From Candidatus Villigracilaceae bacterium (GTDB lineage Bacteria > Chloroflexota > Anaerolineae > Anaerolineales > Villigracilaceae), in assembly GCA_026645935.1 (NCBI GenBank), contig JAPKMP010000008.1, forward strand, positions 124,001-188,000: 64,000 bases of DNA, read 5' to 3'. Both the position numbers and the translations under genes were made by a program. Shown here piece by piece: positions 39,436 to 44,442 of the stretch. Under the pieces are notes generated by a model that made no database searches, was not told the DNA's origin, and worked only from the letters and a program-made list of their open reading frames with translations. How positions within the stretch are numbered: position 1 is the first letter of the stretch; the number at the start of each line of letters is the position of its first letter.

Positions 39436-39477
39436 ATGAAATCAAATCCGGAGCAACCGATCTCTGATGTCCTTTGA
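39436..39477 (+). CDS. Possible leader mini-ORF (13 codons)
   Basis: ATG at 39436, just after a TATACT box, opens MKSNPEQPISDVL and stops at 39477. It overlaps the ATG of the ATP-grasp gene (39467) by 11 bases. Its translation could deliver ribosomes to the main start, whose own GGAG is 13 bases away. It may be chance; there is no homology evidence. Confidence 0.3.
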   Translation: MKSNPEQPISDVL

Positions 39478-40591
39478 CGGAAAACCCAACCGTCGTTCGA
39501 AACGTCCATGGAAAGTGGCGGTAATCGGCAATATCAAGGATGCGAACCAGCCCAAGCCGGAGGGCGTCCCGCCGGATGTCTTCGCCGATTTCGATACGAT
39601 GGAAACGATGGACGCGCTTCGCGCTGCCATCGAAACGGATGGCCACTCCACGGTCTTTCTCCACTCCGATCGCGATCTGCCATATGCGCTGAAAAAATAC
39701 AAGCCCGATATCTGTTTCAACATGTCGGAGGGACTCGGCGGCGACGCGCGCGAAGCGCAGGTTCCCGCATTGCTGGAGATGCTCTCGATCCCTTACACCG
39801 CATCACGGGTGCTCGCAAACGGCATCTCGCTCGATAAAACACTGACGAAACGCATCTGGCGCGACCGCCGTCTGCCCGTCGCCCCCTTTCAGGAGTTCAC
39901 ATTCGGCGACGAACCCCTGCGCCCCGAGTTGAAGTTCCCGCTCTTCGTCAAGCCTGCGCGCGAAGGGACAGGCATGGGCGTGGATATGAACGCCATTGTC
40001 AACAATGAAGCGGAACTGCGCGAACGCGCGCAATACATCATCAACGCCTATCAACAACCCGCATTGGTCGAAGTCTTTCTTCCGGGCCGCGAATTCACCG
40101 TGGGCATTCTGGGACGCACGGACGCCAAACGTTATAGTCGTCATCCCGAATGGTACGATAAGGACGGATTTCACCGTTTTCCGATCCTGGAATTGGATAC
40201 GGGCAACACTGAAGGTCCGTGGATCTACACCAACGAAGCCAAATCCAAAGATGTCGGTCCTGAGGGCAATGAAGGTTTTTTTTGTCCGGCAATCGTGGAC
40301 CCCGAACTGGAAAAGAAACTCAAACACCTGGCATATCGCGCCCATAACATCGTCTATGCGCTCGATGTCTCGCGCACCGACATTCGGTTGGATGAGGAAG
40401 GCAATCCGCGCCTGATAGAGATCAACACCCTGCCCGGTCTCACACCCGGTTACAGCGACTTGTGCCTGCAAGCAGAAGCCGAGGGCATCAGCCACACCGA
40501 CCTGATATTGGAAATCCTTTATCTTGCGGCGGGACGATGGGGAATGCTCGAACCGAGGGAGCTGGAAGAGCCGAAGAGGAACGGAAAATGA
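39467..40591 (+). CDS. ATP-grasp ligase, D-alanine--D-alanine ligase-like
   Basis: The 374-residue enzyme resembles D-Ala-D-Ala ligase in its order of motifs: NMSEGLGGDAREAQVPALLEM (substrate Glu and N-terminal domain), IPYTASRVLANGISLDKTLTK, FPLFVKPAREGTGMGVD (ATP lysine), FLPGREFTVGILGR, and the metal site DIRLDEEGNPRLIEINTLPG. It diverges from housekeeping Ddl in the N-terminal 40 residues and in the insertion YTNEAKSKDVGPEGNEG. It may make a related dipeptide or peptide bond rather than be the main cell-wall Ddl. It is monocistronic, with a good terminator. Confidence 0.8.
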   Translation: MSFDGKPNRRSKRPWKVAVIGNIKDANQPKPEGVPPDVFADFDTMETMDALRAAIETDGHSTVFLHSDRDLPYALKKYKPDICFNMSEGLGGDAREAQVPALLEMLSIPYTASRVLANGISLDKTLTKRIWRDRRLPVAPFQEFTFGDEPLRPELKFPLFVKPAREGTGMGVDMNAIVNNEAELRERAQYIINAYQQPALVEVFLPGREFTVGILGRTDAKRYSRHPEWYDKDGFHRFPILELDTGNTEGPWIYTNEAKSKDVGPEGNEGFFCPAIVDPELEKKLKHLAYRAHNIVYALDVSRTDIRLDEEGNPRLIEINTLPGLTPGYSDLCLQAEAEGISHTDLILEILYLAAGRWGMLEPRELEEPKRNGK

Positions 40592-40638
40592 TCAGAGATT
40601 AAGCGGCATAAACCCGCAATTGGTTCGAACGACGACAT

Positions 40639-40674
40639 GGAGCGCAAAATTAAAGATTTTGCGCTCCGGTTTTA
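40639..40674 (+). terminator. Rho-independent terminator
   Basis: GGAGCGCAAAAT (40639-40650) pairs perfectly with ATTTTGCGCTCC (40656-40667) over a 5-base loop, followed by GGTTTTATT. It ends the ATP-grasp gene and abuts the stop of the converging cytochrome gene. Confidence 0.88.
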
Positions 40675-42057
40675 TTAATCGTCGCCACCCTCACCTTCGA
40701 AGTTGTTCCCTTCATGGCAGGCGATACAGCTGGATTGAAACACAGATGAAGGATGACATTCCCTGCATGAGGCGCCACCATGGTGGATTCCAGTTCCCTC
40801 TTCCTCTGCGCGCGGTTCGGGATGGGAGATATCGAACCGGGCTGGCAACCATGAATCTACAGAATGGCAGGACTCGCACACCGAGCCGAACGCACCTGCG
40901 TGGAAAGCGGGATCCTGATGACAGCTGATACAAGTGGTGGAGAGCCCTTCGAAAGTACCGCCTACATGGCACTCGTCACATTCCACTTGAGCATGACCGC
41001 CTCGTAGCGGAAAGCCAGTGCTGTTGTGATCGAACGATGCATTTTCCCAATCGGACGGATTGTGGCACGACTCGCACTGAGTACCATATTGTCCATTATG
41101 TTCATCATCTTTACGATGACAGGAATAACAATCCTGCGGCGTGCCTTTGAAGACATTGTTCACATGGCATTCCTCACAGGCGGCTTTAGAGTGTTCACCC
41201 TCGAGTTTGAATGATGACAAGTTATGATCGAAATTGGCAGGCGTCCAGCCTTTAACAGAATGGCAGTTCTGACATTCTGCGCCGAATGCGCCTTGATGAG
41301 CATCGTCCTGCCTATGGCACGAGAAGCAATCCTGGGGCGCAGTTTGCAAATCCGCGATGGAACGGGCGTCGAGATGACATTTCGTACAGGCAACGTTTGC
41401 GTGCCCGCCCTTGAGATCGAATGGATAGGCGTTGTGGTTGAAATCGCCGTACCGATCCACGCCATCATGGCAGGCAAGGCAATCCGCGCCGAACGAGAGG
41501 ATATGACCCTGGGCGAAGACAATGTCCATGTCGCTGTGACAGGTTTGGCACGAGTCTGAGGTGAAGGTCGTCAAATCATCACTGTGACAGGAATCGCAAG
41601 TTATCGGCTGACCGGATTCCATCCGCTTGTGCTCATTCAAGGCAAAACCGAAGGCATCGTGCGGGAAGGTATTATCCCCAAGGTCGGTCAGGGATGCGGT
41701 CTTCCCGCGATGTTCATGGTGACAATCGCGGCAGGCAAGGCTGGGCGATTTTGCCGTAATGGAGCCGTGAAGCTGGGCAACGTCCCGCATTTGGTCGGCG
41801 ATATTTTCATGACAATCGAGACATTGGTCAGCCATTGTAGCCTGACCCCATGGCGCAACATGACAGGATTTACACTCGATGATCTGCGCGTGCGAATTGA
41901 CGCCGTGAATGTTTTCGCCGGGTTGGGCGTTCAGCGCGCCGGAGCTGAACATTTGCGATCCGCTGGCGTAGGCGACGCCGAAGATGACGAATATGGTAAT
42001 CAGAGCGGCGATGATTCCCGTTCCTGTCAGACAGCCAAGACGATTTGCGTTTTTCAT
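40675..42057 (-). CDS. Multiheme cytochrome c with 17 CxxCH motifs
   Basis: The 460-residue protein begins with a signal anchor (IIAALITIFVIFGVAYASG) and then carries 17 CxxCH heme-binding motifs, the first at about residue 62 (CKSCH) and the last near the C-terminus (CIACH). From about residue 200 the pattern is a repeat of roughly 45-60 residues: a CxxCH followed by AxFDHN-x-FxLxGxH and CxxCH. FDHN and GxH histidines are probable distal heme ligands, as in cytochrome c7/NapC-type modules. It would form a heme wire on the outer face of the membrane. It is the last gene of a four-gene redox operon; membrane cytochrome b is its likely electron donor. Confidence 0.93.
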   Translation of the reverse strand: MKNANRLGCLTGTGIIAALITIFVIFGVAYASGSQMFSSGALNAQPGENIHGVNSHAQIIECKSCHVAPWGQATMADQCLDCHENIADQMRDVAQLHGSITAKSPSLACRDCHHEHRGKTASLTDLGDNTFPHDAFGFALNEHKRMESGQPITCDSCHSDDLTTFTSDSCQTCHSDMDIVFAQGHILSFGADCLACHDGVDRYGDFNHNAYPFDLKGGHANVACTKCHLDARSIADLQTAPQDCFSCHRQDDAHQGAFGAECQNCHSVKGWTPANFDHNLSSFKLEGEHSKAACEECHVNNVFKGTPQDCYSCHRKDDEHNGQYGTQCESCHNPSDWENASFDHNSTGFPLRGGHAQVECDECHVGGTFEGLSTTCISCHQDPAFHAGAFGSVCESCHSVDSWLPARFDISHPEPRAEEEGTGIHHGGASCRECHPSSVFQSSCIACHEGNNFEGEGGDD

Positions 42058-42066
42058 GACCGCTTC

Positions 42067-42621
42067 CTATTTCAGAAACGTAGCGTAGTACAACGCCCCG
42101 CCGATATGGATAAAGGCGGAGATGAACAACGCCATCCCGATGGGTATGTGGACAGTGTGCCACAGCGCCAGGAATTGACGCCCGCGCCTGAGCGCTTCCT
42201 GCGAGAGCGCGCCTTCGATCTCGATACCGTCGAGCGTGCGCGGAATGCGGGTGAAGATATATCTCCCGATGATGCCGCTGAAGACAATGATGACCGTCAA
42301 CAGGGTGGTCGCGCCCGCCAGTCCGTTGAACTTCCATGAAGTATGAAGCAAAACCATGAAAGGCCCGACCAAACCCATGTAGATGTGAAACCTAAGCCAG
42401 GTGGACATTCGTCCCAATGTGGCTCTGCGGCTTCGTTTGCGGATGCTGTAAAGAATTTCGGTCATGAGCATGAGAATGAATCCGATGATCCCAAGTGTGT
42501 GACCGATCAGTTCCCCTGCGGCGGGGATTTCCCGCGTCCAAAGCGATATCAGTCCATATCCCGCGCCGATGAATATACATGTGATCGTTGCAAGCCAAAG
42601 TTCGATGTTCCCACGAAGCAT
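42067..42621 (-). CDS. Membrane cytochrome b-like protein
   Basis: The 184-residue protein has about five hydrophobic segments with histidines placed for heme b: GHTLGIIGF, FHIYMGLVGPFMVLLHTSW, LWHTVHIPIGMAL and FIHIGGALYY. The layout resembles cytochrome b561/ferric-reductase-like domains. It lies 9 nt upstream of the 17-heme cytochrome gene and 48 nt after the FAD oxidoreductase. It probably passes electrons across the membrane from the cytoplasmic flavoprotein/ferredoxin to the external multiheme protein. Confidence 0.82.
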   Translation of the reverse strand: MLRGNIELWLATITCIFIGAGYGLISLWTREIPAAGELIGHTLGIIGFILMLMTEILYSIRKRSRRATLGRMSTWLRFHIYMGLVGPFMVLLHTSWKFNGLAGATTLLTVIIVFSGIIGRYIFTRIPRTLDGIEIEGALSQEALRRGRQFLALWHTVHIPIGMALFISAFIHIGGALYYATFLK

Positions 42622-42669
42622 ATATGCCCTCCCGAGGCAAAAAAGCGAAACTTACGGCGGATGGTGAAA

Positions 42670-43971
42670 CTATCCTGCCTGGCTGCGCATCCAATAATCC
42701 AAGATCACATCGGCGATCCTGGCGTCCTTCATTAGAAGCCGGTCACGGATCAAGGCGATGTTCATTTTTTCGGCGATCATGTGCTGCAAAGGCGTGGAGA
42801 GTTTCTGGTCGCCCATCACGACCGCACCGAGGAGGTGGTCTTCACCGATCACCAACCGGACGCGGTTGACGTCGAAGCCGCTTTGAGCCACAGCGGCATC
42901 CGGCAATTGGCGCCAGGTCTCGCTGTCTCCGCGCGCGATGCCCACCACATCTTCATCACCGCCATGCCCCACCGCGCCTATTATGGTCGTGGTCAGCCCG
43001 GCAAGGCGCGTGACGTTGAACGGAACGGTTTTGATATACGGCTTGACCTGCCCGGTCATATTCAACCCGGCGGCAAACCCCTGTTCGCGAGCCGGACTCC
43101 ATAAACTATCCAGCACGGATCGTCCCGACAAGGGATCATAGACCTGCGCCGCGTCGCCCACCGCATAAATATCCGGGTCGCTCGTCTGAAGATATTCATT
43201 GACGAGGATTCCCCTGTCACAGGCGAGGCCGGCATTTCTCGCAATATCGATGCGCGGCTGGATTCCCACAGCATAGGCGAAAAGATCGCACTTCATGACA
43301 CGCCCATCCAAAAGGCAGATGCCGTTCACCCTGCCCGATCTGCCCTGGATCTCAACGACCTCGGAACGAAAATGGATCTCAACACCCTCTTCCTGCAAAC
43401 GCGCCTCCACAATGCGGGACTCGCGCTCGTCGAGGACACCCCTCCAATAACGGCTTGCACGAAGAAGATAATGAACCTTCATGCCGCGTGCCAGCAATCC
43501 TTCGGCTAATTCGAGCGCGGTGATGCCCCCGCCCGTCACAACCGCGGTCCGCCCGCGTTTGGCAAGTTTCAAAATCGCGAGCGCATCTTCGAGATGATCG
43601 AGTTTCACCACGCCCTGCAAATTCGCGCCGGGAACCGTCATCGGGACCGACAAGGCTCCGGTGGCAAGCAACAGCTTATCGTACGTAAGAGGCGAACCGT
43701 CGCCTAGAATCACAGCCTTGTTTTTCCGGTCGATCCCTTTCACCCGTGTTTTCTTGTACGAAAAATTCAATCGCGAGTAATCCTCGCGGGTCTTTGGGAA
43801 GAGCGCCTTGTCGTGCAGTTCCCCGGTGAGGAAGTAAGCCAGCCCGGGTCGGGAATAATATCCATGCGGGTCGTCGCCGAGCATGATGATTTCCACGCCT
43901 CTGTCCACGCTGCGAATTGCCTCCACAGCTGAGAGTCCCGCCACGCCTGAGCCGATGATGATGCGCCTCAT
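42670..43971 (-). CDS. FAD/NAD(P)-dependent oxidoreductase (pyridine nucleotide-disulfide oxidoreductase-like)
   Basis: The 433-residue flavoprotein has an N-terminal FAD site IIIGSGVAGLSAVEAI, an NAD(P) site VVTGGGITALELAEGLL at about residue 146, and the second FAD motif DIYAVGDAAQV. No redox-active CxxC is seen, so it resembles ferredoxin/rubredoxin reductases and the N-terminal part of NirB. The ATG at 43971 overlaps the ferredoxin stop by four bases (ATGA), so the pair is co-translated. It likely exchanges electrons between NAD(P)H and the ferredoxin. Confidence 0.88.
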   Translation of the reverse strand: MRRIIIGSGVAGLSAVEAIRSVDRGVEIIMLGDDPHGYYSRPGLAYFLTGELHDKALFPKTREDYSRLNFSYKKTRVKGIDRKNKAVILGDGSPLTYDKLLLATGALSVPMTVPGANLQGVVKLDHLEDALAILKLAKRGRTAVVTGGGITALELAEGLLARGMKVHYLLRASRYWRGVLDERESRIVEARLQEEGVEIHFRSEVVEIQGRSGRVNGICLLDGRVMKCDLFAYAVGIQPRIDIARNAGLACDRGILVNEYLQTSDPDIYAVGDAAQVYDPLSGRSVLDSLWSPAREQGFAAGLNMTGQVKPYIKTVPFNVTRLAGLTTTIIGAVGHGGDEDVVGIARGDSETWRQLPDAAVAQSGFDVNRVRLVIGEDHLLGAVVMGDQKLSTPLQHMIAEKMNIALIRDRLLMKDARIADVILDYWMRSQAG

Positions 43972-44225
43972 GCGCCACCTTCCCTCTGCGGAACAGCCTG
44001 TTCGAAACGAAGCGCCCCGCGCGGACAGCGCGCCACGCATTCACCGCAGGTCAGGCATTCGCGATGCTTGACAGATTCACCCTGCCATGCATGCGCCCGA
44101 ACATCTATGCCGATAGGACAGTTATAGGTGCAGATGCCGCACTGCACACAACGATAAGGGTCTGGAACTACAAATCCCGTCGACAAGGATATGCGGCGGT
44201 TTCGATTGTTCGAAAATAGTTCCAT
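43968..44225 (-). CDS. Ferredoxin with two [4Fe-4S] clusters
   Basis: The 85-residue protein has two cluster motifs, CVQCGICTYNCPIG and CLTCGECVARCPRG. The second matches the standard CxxCxxCxxxCP form, and so does the first. The N-terminal 20 residues are basic. It is the first gene of the redox operon and overlaps the flavoprotein gene. Its job is probably electron delivery to the flavoprotein or membrane cytochrome. Confidence 0.9.
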   Translation of the reverse strand: MELFSNNRNRRISLSTGFVVPDPYRCVQCGICTYNCPIGIDVRAHAWQGESVKHRECLTCGECVARCPRGALRFEQAVPQREGGA

Positions 44226-44394
44226 AATGGATATGTCGCTGAATGGGAGAAAAGGTTACGGGGTGATACAAGATTATTGTAAATCTGCCTTCAATCGTCC
44301 AAATAGTGACGAATGTCATGAATTGAAGGCGCTTGAATGATATATATAAGTAAGGGATAATTGTCAATATTCTTTACCAGTTATTAAACAAAAA

Positions 44395-44418
44395 CAGGGT
44401 TGTCTCACGACAACCCTG
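44395..44418 (-). terminator. Rho-independent terminator of the cold-shock gene
   Basis: CAGGGTTGTC (44395-44404) pairs with GACAACCCTG (44409-44418) over a 4-base loop. On the minus strand TTTTTGTTT follows. Confidence 0.92.
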
Positions 44419-44442
44419 CTCGTTATGCAAATGATGTACTTC

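Follow-up and report, generated by a model that had tools for sequence, protein, structure and literature searches.

Conserved linkage of a ferredoxin, a flavoprotein, a membrane cytochrome b and a 17-heme cytochrome in Anaerolineales: a candidate NADPH-driven electron exporter

From where do the large heme proteins of the Anaerolineales receive their electrons? No description of this electron source was found in the parts of the literature that were compared, and the question is raised by four adjacent genes in a 64,000-nucleotide stretch (the window) of contig JAPKMP010000008.1 (positions 124,001 to 188,000, assembly GCA_026645935.1) from a Candidatus Villigracilaceae bacterium of the phylum Chloroflexota. 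All four genes are intact; they occupy 44225 to 40675 of the window on its minus strand and encode a ferredoxin, a flavin adenine dinucleotide (FAD) protein, a cytochrome b and a multiheme protein, in the order given in a preliminary description of this DNA. The quartet is real and conserved, and it is a good candidate for an electron exporter driven by reduced nicotinamide adenine dinucleotide phosphate (NADPH). The host genome comprises 4,329,913 bases in 70 contigs and is 98.67% complete.

The ferredoxin gene (43968..44225, minus strand) encodes 85 residues with two CxxCxxCxxxC cluster motifs, and the 2[4Fe-4S] protein matches PF12838 with 42.7 bits (cut-off 27). Among 13 aligned relatives the cysteines of the second cluster and three of those of the first are invariant, and the remaining one, Cys26, is kept in at least 90%. 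The adjoining gene (42670..43971, minus strand) encodes an FAD/NAD(P) reductase of 433 residues belonging to the Pyr_redox_2 family (PF07992; 189.9 bits, cut-off 26.1). These two genes do overlap, as had been claimed, by the four bases ATGA at the ferredoxin stop and not by the 73 bases first listed: the start at 44040 is merely that of the longest open reading frame (ORF), and homologues begin at the ATG at 43971. The FAD half has no redox cysteine pair, there being no cysteine before residue 200 of 433 in the sequence as read and aligned with homologues, and the protein looks like a ferredoxin/rubredoxin-reductase-like flavoprotein for which reduction of ferredoxin is predicted. In the search alignments its relatives 3fg2, 8c0z, 6pfz and 8a56 have glycine in the nucleotide fingerprint and glutamate at the end of the next strand, places that hold Ala152 and Leu170, followed by Arg171, in the window protein. 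A fixed text pattern for the cofactor site missed 20 of 74 FAD proteins, and the site was counted instead in 82 aligned proteins, FAD proteins of fewer than 400 residues being excluded; Arg171 occurs in all 82 and Ala152 in 79. In glutathione reductase, alanine and arginine at the corresponding positions are a mark of NADPH use. Since Arg171 is invariant beside the place where NADH-type relatives carry glutamate, use of NADPH is suggested, and a preference for it over NADH is likely.

The third gene (42067..42621, minus strand) encodes a membrane protein of 184 residues with five predicted helices, which are present in its AlphaFold model (mean predicted local distance difference test score, pLDDT, 77.8). 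Histidines 41, 79, 93, 155, 158 and 172 are invariant in 19 relatives. Two pairs of these, 79/93 and 158/172, are each 14 residues apart on predicted helices 3 and 5, and the 14/14 spacing is readable too in the distant cytochromes b of loci L032, L158 and L162. They are the predicted ligands of two stacked hemes b, two histidine pairs being what is expected of a NOX or ferric reductase. Cytochrome b is apt as a name for the kind of protein, while assignment to a curated Pfam family fails, with PF01292 (prokaryotic b561) at 23.3 bits (cut-off 30.1) and PF01794 (Ferric_reduct) at 14.4 bits (cut-off 28). PF01292 is matched at E 0.1 or better by 14 of the 19 relatives, a weak similarity. A fold search with the model gave no match at E 0.001 or better, NOX5 (E 0.47) and b561 rows being leads only; a profile search against solved structures returned only weak matches to unrelated molecules, and a single-sequence search against them returned nothing for the cytochrome b or for the heme protein. 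By our own reading of the positive-inside rule, the basic loop that follows helix 2 would be cytoplasmic, as would the one joining helices 4 and 5, and the C-terminus would be outside. The helix 4–5 loop is ∼45 to 90 residues longer in other families, where our guess is that it serves docking.

The last gene (40675..42057, minus strand) encodes a c-type cytochrome of 460 residues with an N-terminal hydrophobic segment, a helix (residues 12–31) in a low-confidence model that may be a signal or an anchor. Counting confirms the 17 CxxCH motifs reported earlier; 2000 shuffled sequences of the same composition averaged 0.217 motifs, and none had more than 3. Matches to PF14537 (66.3 bits, cut-off 25) and PF14522 (65.3 bits, cut-off 24.8) make it a cytochrome of the c3/c7 type, and the commonest motif spacings (16, 18 and 32) describe a unit of ∼66 residues with three hemes. 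Twenty histidines lie outside the motifs, and 16 are kept, 15 in every relative and His289 in 12 of the 14 relatives having a residue there. Histidine 425 or 426 could serve the last heme, giving 17 plausible distal histidines for 17 hemes. Likewise, in 96 distinct heme-protein ORFs with 11 to 47 CxxCH (ORFs with fewer than 10 were not counted, and some are cut by contig ends) the histidines outside motifs are never fewer than the hemes (r 0.92). Because each heme has a candidate distal histidine, the protein looks like a bis-histidine wire rather than a reductase. Its solved relatives are distant (HmcA-type entries, E 9.2e-6 to 2.7e-5; 3ov0, E 2.2e-4), and the NCBIfam HmcA equivalog NF045713 gives 24.7 bits against a cut-off of 400, which places it outside HmcA. 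The host can probably attach hemes c, since the two frames with PF01578 matches (692 and 264 residues) have the sizes of CcmF and CcmC.

Other genomes of the genus contain free-standing cytochromes of giant size that belong to the same triheme-repeat family. They include genes with 105 CxxCH in 2486 residues (L171, 2421-9881, minus strand), 75 in 1794 residues (L172, 757-6141, plus strand), 57 (L175, 3207-7277, plus strand) and 39 (L177, 2226-5030, plus strand), and two genes cut by the contig with at least 78 (L173) and at least 56 (L174). In each of these six the other histidines exceed the motifs.

A search for the quartet in other genomes, which the preliminary description had proposed, showed that the linkage is conserved. 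Named genomes were scanned with the cytochrome b, and the best 80 of 188 relatives gave 79 loci, all with Chloroflexota-type names. Linkage was counted by tblastn; greedy gene calling dropped the cytochrome b in 4, the FAD protein in 5 and the ferredoxin in 34 of the 79 loci. At 68 loci the ferredoxin and FAD genes lie upstream and the heme gene downstream of the cytochrome b, on one strand and in the same order; contig room is ample at 61 of them, and a further 4 and 3 are near a contig end. Ten of the other 11 loci are cut by contig ends: in nine the cytochrome b lies no more than 2.2 kb from the contig start (five without FAD and ferredoxin genes, four without ferredoxin), and in L127 it ends 32 bases after this gene. 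The eleventh, L111, has a 35-heme gene inserted between the FAD and cytochrome b genes. Chance neighbours were rejected as an explanation, since the linkage recurs across loci, and a sequence artefact was rejected on the grounds that the frames are open in dozens of genomes. In more distant families the genes are likewise grouped but ordered differently: cytochrome b, heme protein, ferredoxin, FAD protein (L038, L039 and L041), heme protein, cytochrome b, ferredoxin, FAD protein (L036), and ferredoxin, cytochrome b, heme protein, ferredoxin, FAD protein (L034). One contig (JANJTV010000076.1) carries two inverted copies of the quartet with mirrored flanks (L123 and L124), a recent duplication or an assembly artefact.

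The genes are also present or absent together. Three of the four (cytochrome b, FAD protein at E 1e-90 or better, heme protein at 1e-60 or better) were scored in 37 genomes of one genus, the host's own and G001–G036. All three are present in 29 genomes and all three absent in seven (G001, G004, G006, G014, G015, G017 and G026; the one match in G004 is weak and lies in a different gene). G011 has the heme protein and a cytochrome b within which the contig breaks off, and gave no FAD match. No recurring periplasmic reductase neighbour was recognised among 971 called genes clustered from the 79 loci. Both conditions named in the preliminary description as refuting its reading, a dedicated periplasmic reductase partner and a lack of conserved linkage, were thus looked for and not found. 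The commonest neighbour families outside the quartet occur at 26 of the 79 loci (ATP-grasp-like and PHP-like, by eye) or at no more than 20 (ATP synthase genes among them).

Because most genomes of the 79 loci are close kin, stronger support for the linkage comes from other families, in which the gene order differs. The cytochrome b was found at E 1e-8 or better in 54 of 400 genomes drawn from the phylum, and 17 distant loci were taken, of which 15 belong neither to the genus nor to the family. The full set of four gene kinds is present at eight (L149, L150, L151, L153, L154, L155, L164 and L165), the heme gene being cut by the contig end in L150 and the FAD frame split into two ORFs in L153. 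A two-cluster ferredoxin gene is present at 14 of the 17, including six without a heme gene (L157–L161 and L163; mostly one family, f41, of large genomes). At L162 (4152-7700) an FNR-type reductase with a [2Fe-2S] domain, unrelated to the Pyr_redox_2 protein, adjoins genes for a 7-heme protein and a related cytochrome b. An exchange of the input reductase appears to have taken place there, the same logic being served by another input; this genome is 77% complete with 5% contamination, which makes the kinship less sure. From the gene sets at the 17 distant loci, the base of FAD protein, ferredoxin and cytochrome b is read as the constant unit and the heme protein as an attachment.

The host genome contains a second module of similar logic (L032, 2-7171, contig G000:C7), with an FHA-domain FAD protein whose 5′ end lies beyond the stretch, an Fe–S protein whose domains bind cyclic nucleotides, and a membrane protein that has the same histidine spacing joined to a part with five CxxCH. 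The same trio occurs in L042.

With the genes, their redox motifs and their linkage established, and three of the four shown to be present or absent together, we consider it probable that the operon is a membrane electron exporter, running from NADPH through FAD, Fe–S clusters and two hemes b to an external heme wire. The soluble FAD reductase, probably NADPH-dependent, would take two electrons from NADPH and pass them singly via the 2[4Fe-4S] ferredoxin to the five-helix protein, where the inner of the two stacked hemes b would be reduced first. From the outer one, electrons would reach the first heme of the exported 17-heme cytochrome, and this would conduct them to an outside acceptor, which could be a metal oxide, humic matter, another cell or a diffusible oxidant. 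Quinone would be dispensable for the route. With the base kept constant, the wire may grow by about three hemes at a time, and additional wires may be attached. Passage from cytoplasmic carriers across the membrane into an external heme chain, as proposed earlier, fits the topology, the redox motifs and the paired histidines; we infer the order and direction of transfer, the preference for NADPH, the donor and the acceptor. The membrane potential favours electrons moving outward, and on its own such a transfer conserves no energy. The quartet is therefore more likely to drain off excess reductant than to act as a main respiratory chain, and this disposal is its likeliest job.

Several observations weigh against this proposal, every step of which rests on evidence from sequence and models. 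Of the structural check first suggested, only the spacing of the CxxCH motifs along the sequence could be read; AlphaFold with 17 sequences gave a mean pLDDT of 51.1 and a predicted template modelling score of 0.26 for the heme protein, so that the model was not used and yields no distances between hemes. A further arginine of the NADPH signature is present in only 2 of the 82 FAD proteins. At L152 the FAD gene is in pieces beside a cytochrome b and a 13-heme gene, and ferredoxin was not found. The host has other electron sinks, namely three matches to PF00115 (heme-copper oxidase) and, recognised by eye in the window, complex I-like genes. Finally, the base must do more than feed wires, since six of the 17 distant loci have FAD, two-cluster ferredoxin and cytochrome b genes with no heme gene in the stretch. 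Some other acceptor must be served there, which together with the oxidase matches (the host may meet oxygen) would suit a terminal reductase. In that case the heme protein, or a partner whose gene lies elsewhere, would reduce a defined soluble substrate (nitrite, an oxygen species or a metal ion) close to the outer face of the membrane, as an enzyme of respiration or stress and not as a route to distant acceptors. The preliminary description had offered extracellular electron transfer or such a reductase as alternatives, and we favour the former. The 17 plausible distal histidines leave no open heme, the histidine balance is kept over wire lengths of 11 to 47 hemes, a variability unlike that of an enzyme, and no recurring neighbour is recognisable as a reductase, all of which makes the enzymatic alternative unlikely, above all for the heme protein itself; a reductase partner encoded at another place in the genome may exist.

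It is more improbable still that the cytochrome b exchanges electrons with menaquinone, which would make either the NAD(P)H arm or the heme arm an offshoot of the quinone pool. Some prokaryotic members of the b561 family use quinones, and the weak b561 likeness of the cytochrome b points this way, as does L156, another locus at odds with electron export from NADPH, where a cytochrome b and an 8-heme protein occur and FAD protein and ferredoxin were not found. However, the cytochrome b is accompanied by FAD and ferredoxin genes at 68 of the 79 loci, the remainder providing no counter-examples, and at 14 of the 17 distant loci, whether or not a heme gene is present. Electron uptake, in which an outside donor would feed NADP+ through the heme chain as a supply of reductant, is the least probable of the three. 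Multiheme conduits can run both ways, and Ardenticatena maritima, also of the Chloroflexota, gives both anodic and cathodic current in the parts of the report compared (PMC5808234). Inward flow, on established bioenergetics, would have to oppose the membrane potential and would need a donor of very low potential; the sequence itself does not decide on direction.

As an electron exporter, the quartet may work like the NADPH oxidases and ferric reductases (NOX/FRE), which carry electrons from NAD(P)H through FAD and two stacked bis-histidine hemes b to an outside acceptor. It shares this logic but has no fused FNR-type FAD/NAD domain: its reductase is a separate PF07992 gene with a ferredoxin, and the acceptor is a heme wire. 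The flavoprotein is of the same family as chain E of 8c0z, the FAD subunit of an aldehyde oxidoreductase (E 2.3e-35), and as PadH of phenylglyoxylate dehydrogenase (189.9 bits with the PadH model, below its cut-off of 475). Both work with Fe–S subunits and NAD. In contrast to the quartet, neither has membrane or heme parts, and 8c0z has glutamate where the quartet family has Leu-Arg. The heme protein shares chains of c3/c7-type units with sixteen-heme HmcA and the dodecaheme 3ov0, to which its profile matches are distant, and the Hmc complex has other membrane partners. Heme chains leading to outside acceptors are common to the quartet and to the porin-cytochrome conduits and surface cytochromes treated in the compared parts of PMC7829351 and PMC5808234; unlike the conduits, the quartet has no recognised adjoining gene for an outer-membrane barrel, electrons would enter at NAD(P)H, and a need for quinone is not shown.

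In the passages of the literature compared, large Anaerolineales cytochromes of variable length are known and the conserved base is undescribed. Such cytochromes, of variable heme number, come from Rifle bioanode genomes, for which extracellular transfer without porin complex proteins was proposed (PMC7399161). They resemble ours in bacterial order, very large size, variable heme number and the gain or loss of motifs in groups; the compared text of that paper makes no mention of a ferredoxin/FAD/cytochrome b base and has no occurrence of NADH or 'cytochrome b'. Also on record in the parts compared are a 24-heme cytochrome in the Chloroflexi genome RBG-9 (PMC3971608), a largest cytochrome with seven motifs in A. 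maritima (PMC5808234) and Bacteroidota cytochromes with more than 100 motifs (PMC11495043). A description of the module was not found in the compared parts of PMC11650866, PMC5460018, PMC7829351 and PMC11475568, nor in the open-access literature as judged by titles and the starts of abstracts.

Around the quartet, a hairpin with a T tail and a 13-pair stem (44392..44421, minus strand), a possible terminator, lies between the upstream gene and the ferredoxin gene, and a hairpin with a 14-pair stem (40638..40668, plus strand), a possible two-way terminator, lies between the heme gene and a convergent gene. Hairpin sites in the region are no commoner than in shuffled DNA (4 found, mean 4.4), and Rfam gave no match within the window. 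The convergent gene (39467-40591, plus strand), ATP-grasp-like by eye, is the one found beside the quartet at 26 of the 79 loci; ATP synthase genes often follow it, gene order being kept around the site.

Wire sizes range from 11 to 47 hemes beside the base, and up to 105 in free-standing relatives of the same genus. We propose tentatively, at somewhat less than an even chance, that these are members of a quinone-independent class of conduits in single-membrane Chloroflexota, in which a standard socket (NADPH, FAD, 2[4Fe-4S] and diheme b) would receive plug-in wires whose length is fitted to the envelope and to the distance to a mineral or cell. If true, a conserved, quinone-free base with NAD(P)H entry would supply the missing electron source of the large Anaerolineales heme proteins, the question would become testable with purified parts, and the family would make available heme wires graded by nature in length, all fed from one input socket. 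Related Anaerolineales bins come, by their record titles, from sediments, groundwater, lakes and sludge, and through the quartet these bacteria may discharge electrons to their surroundings.

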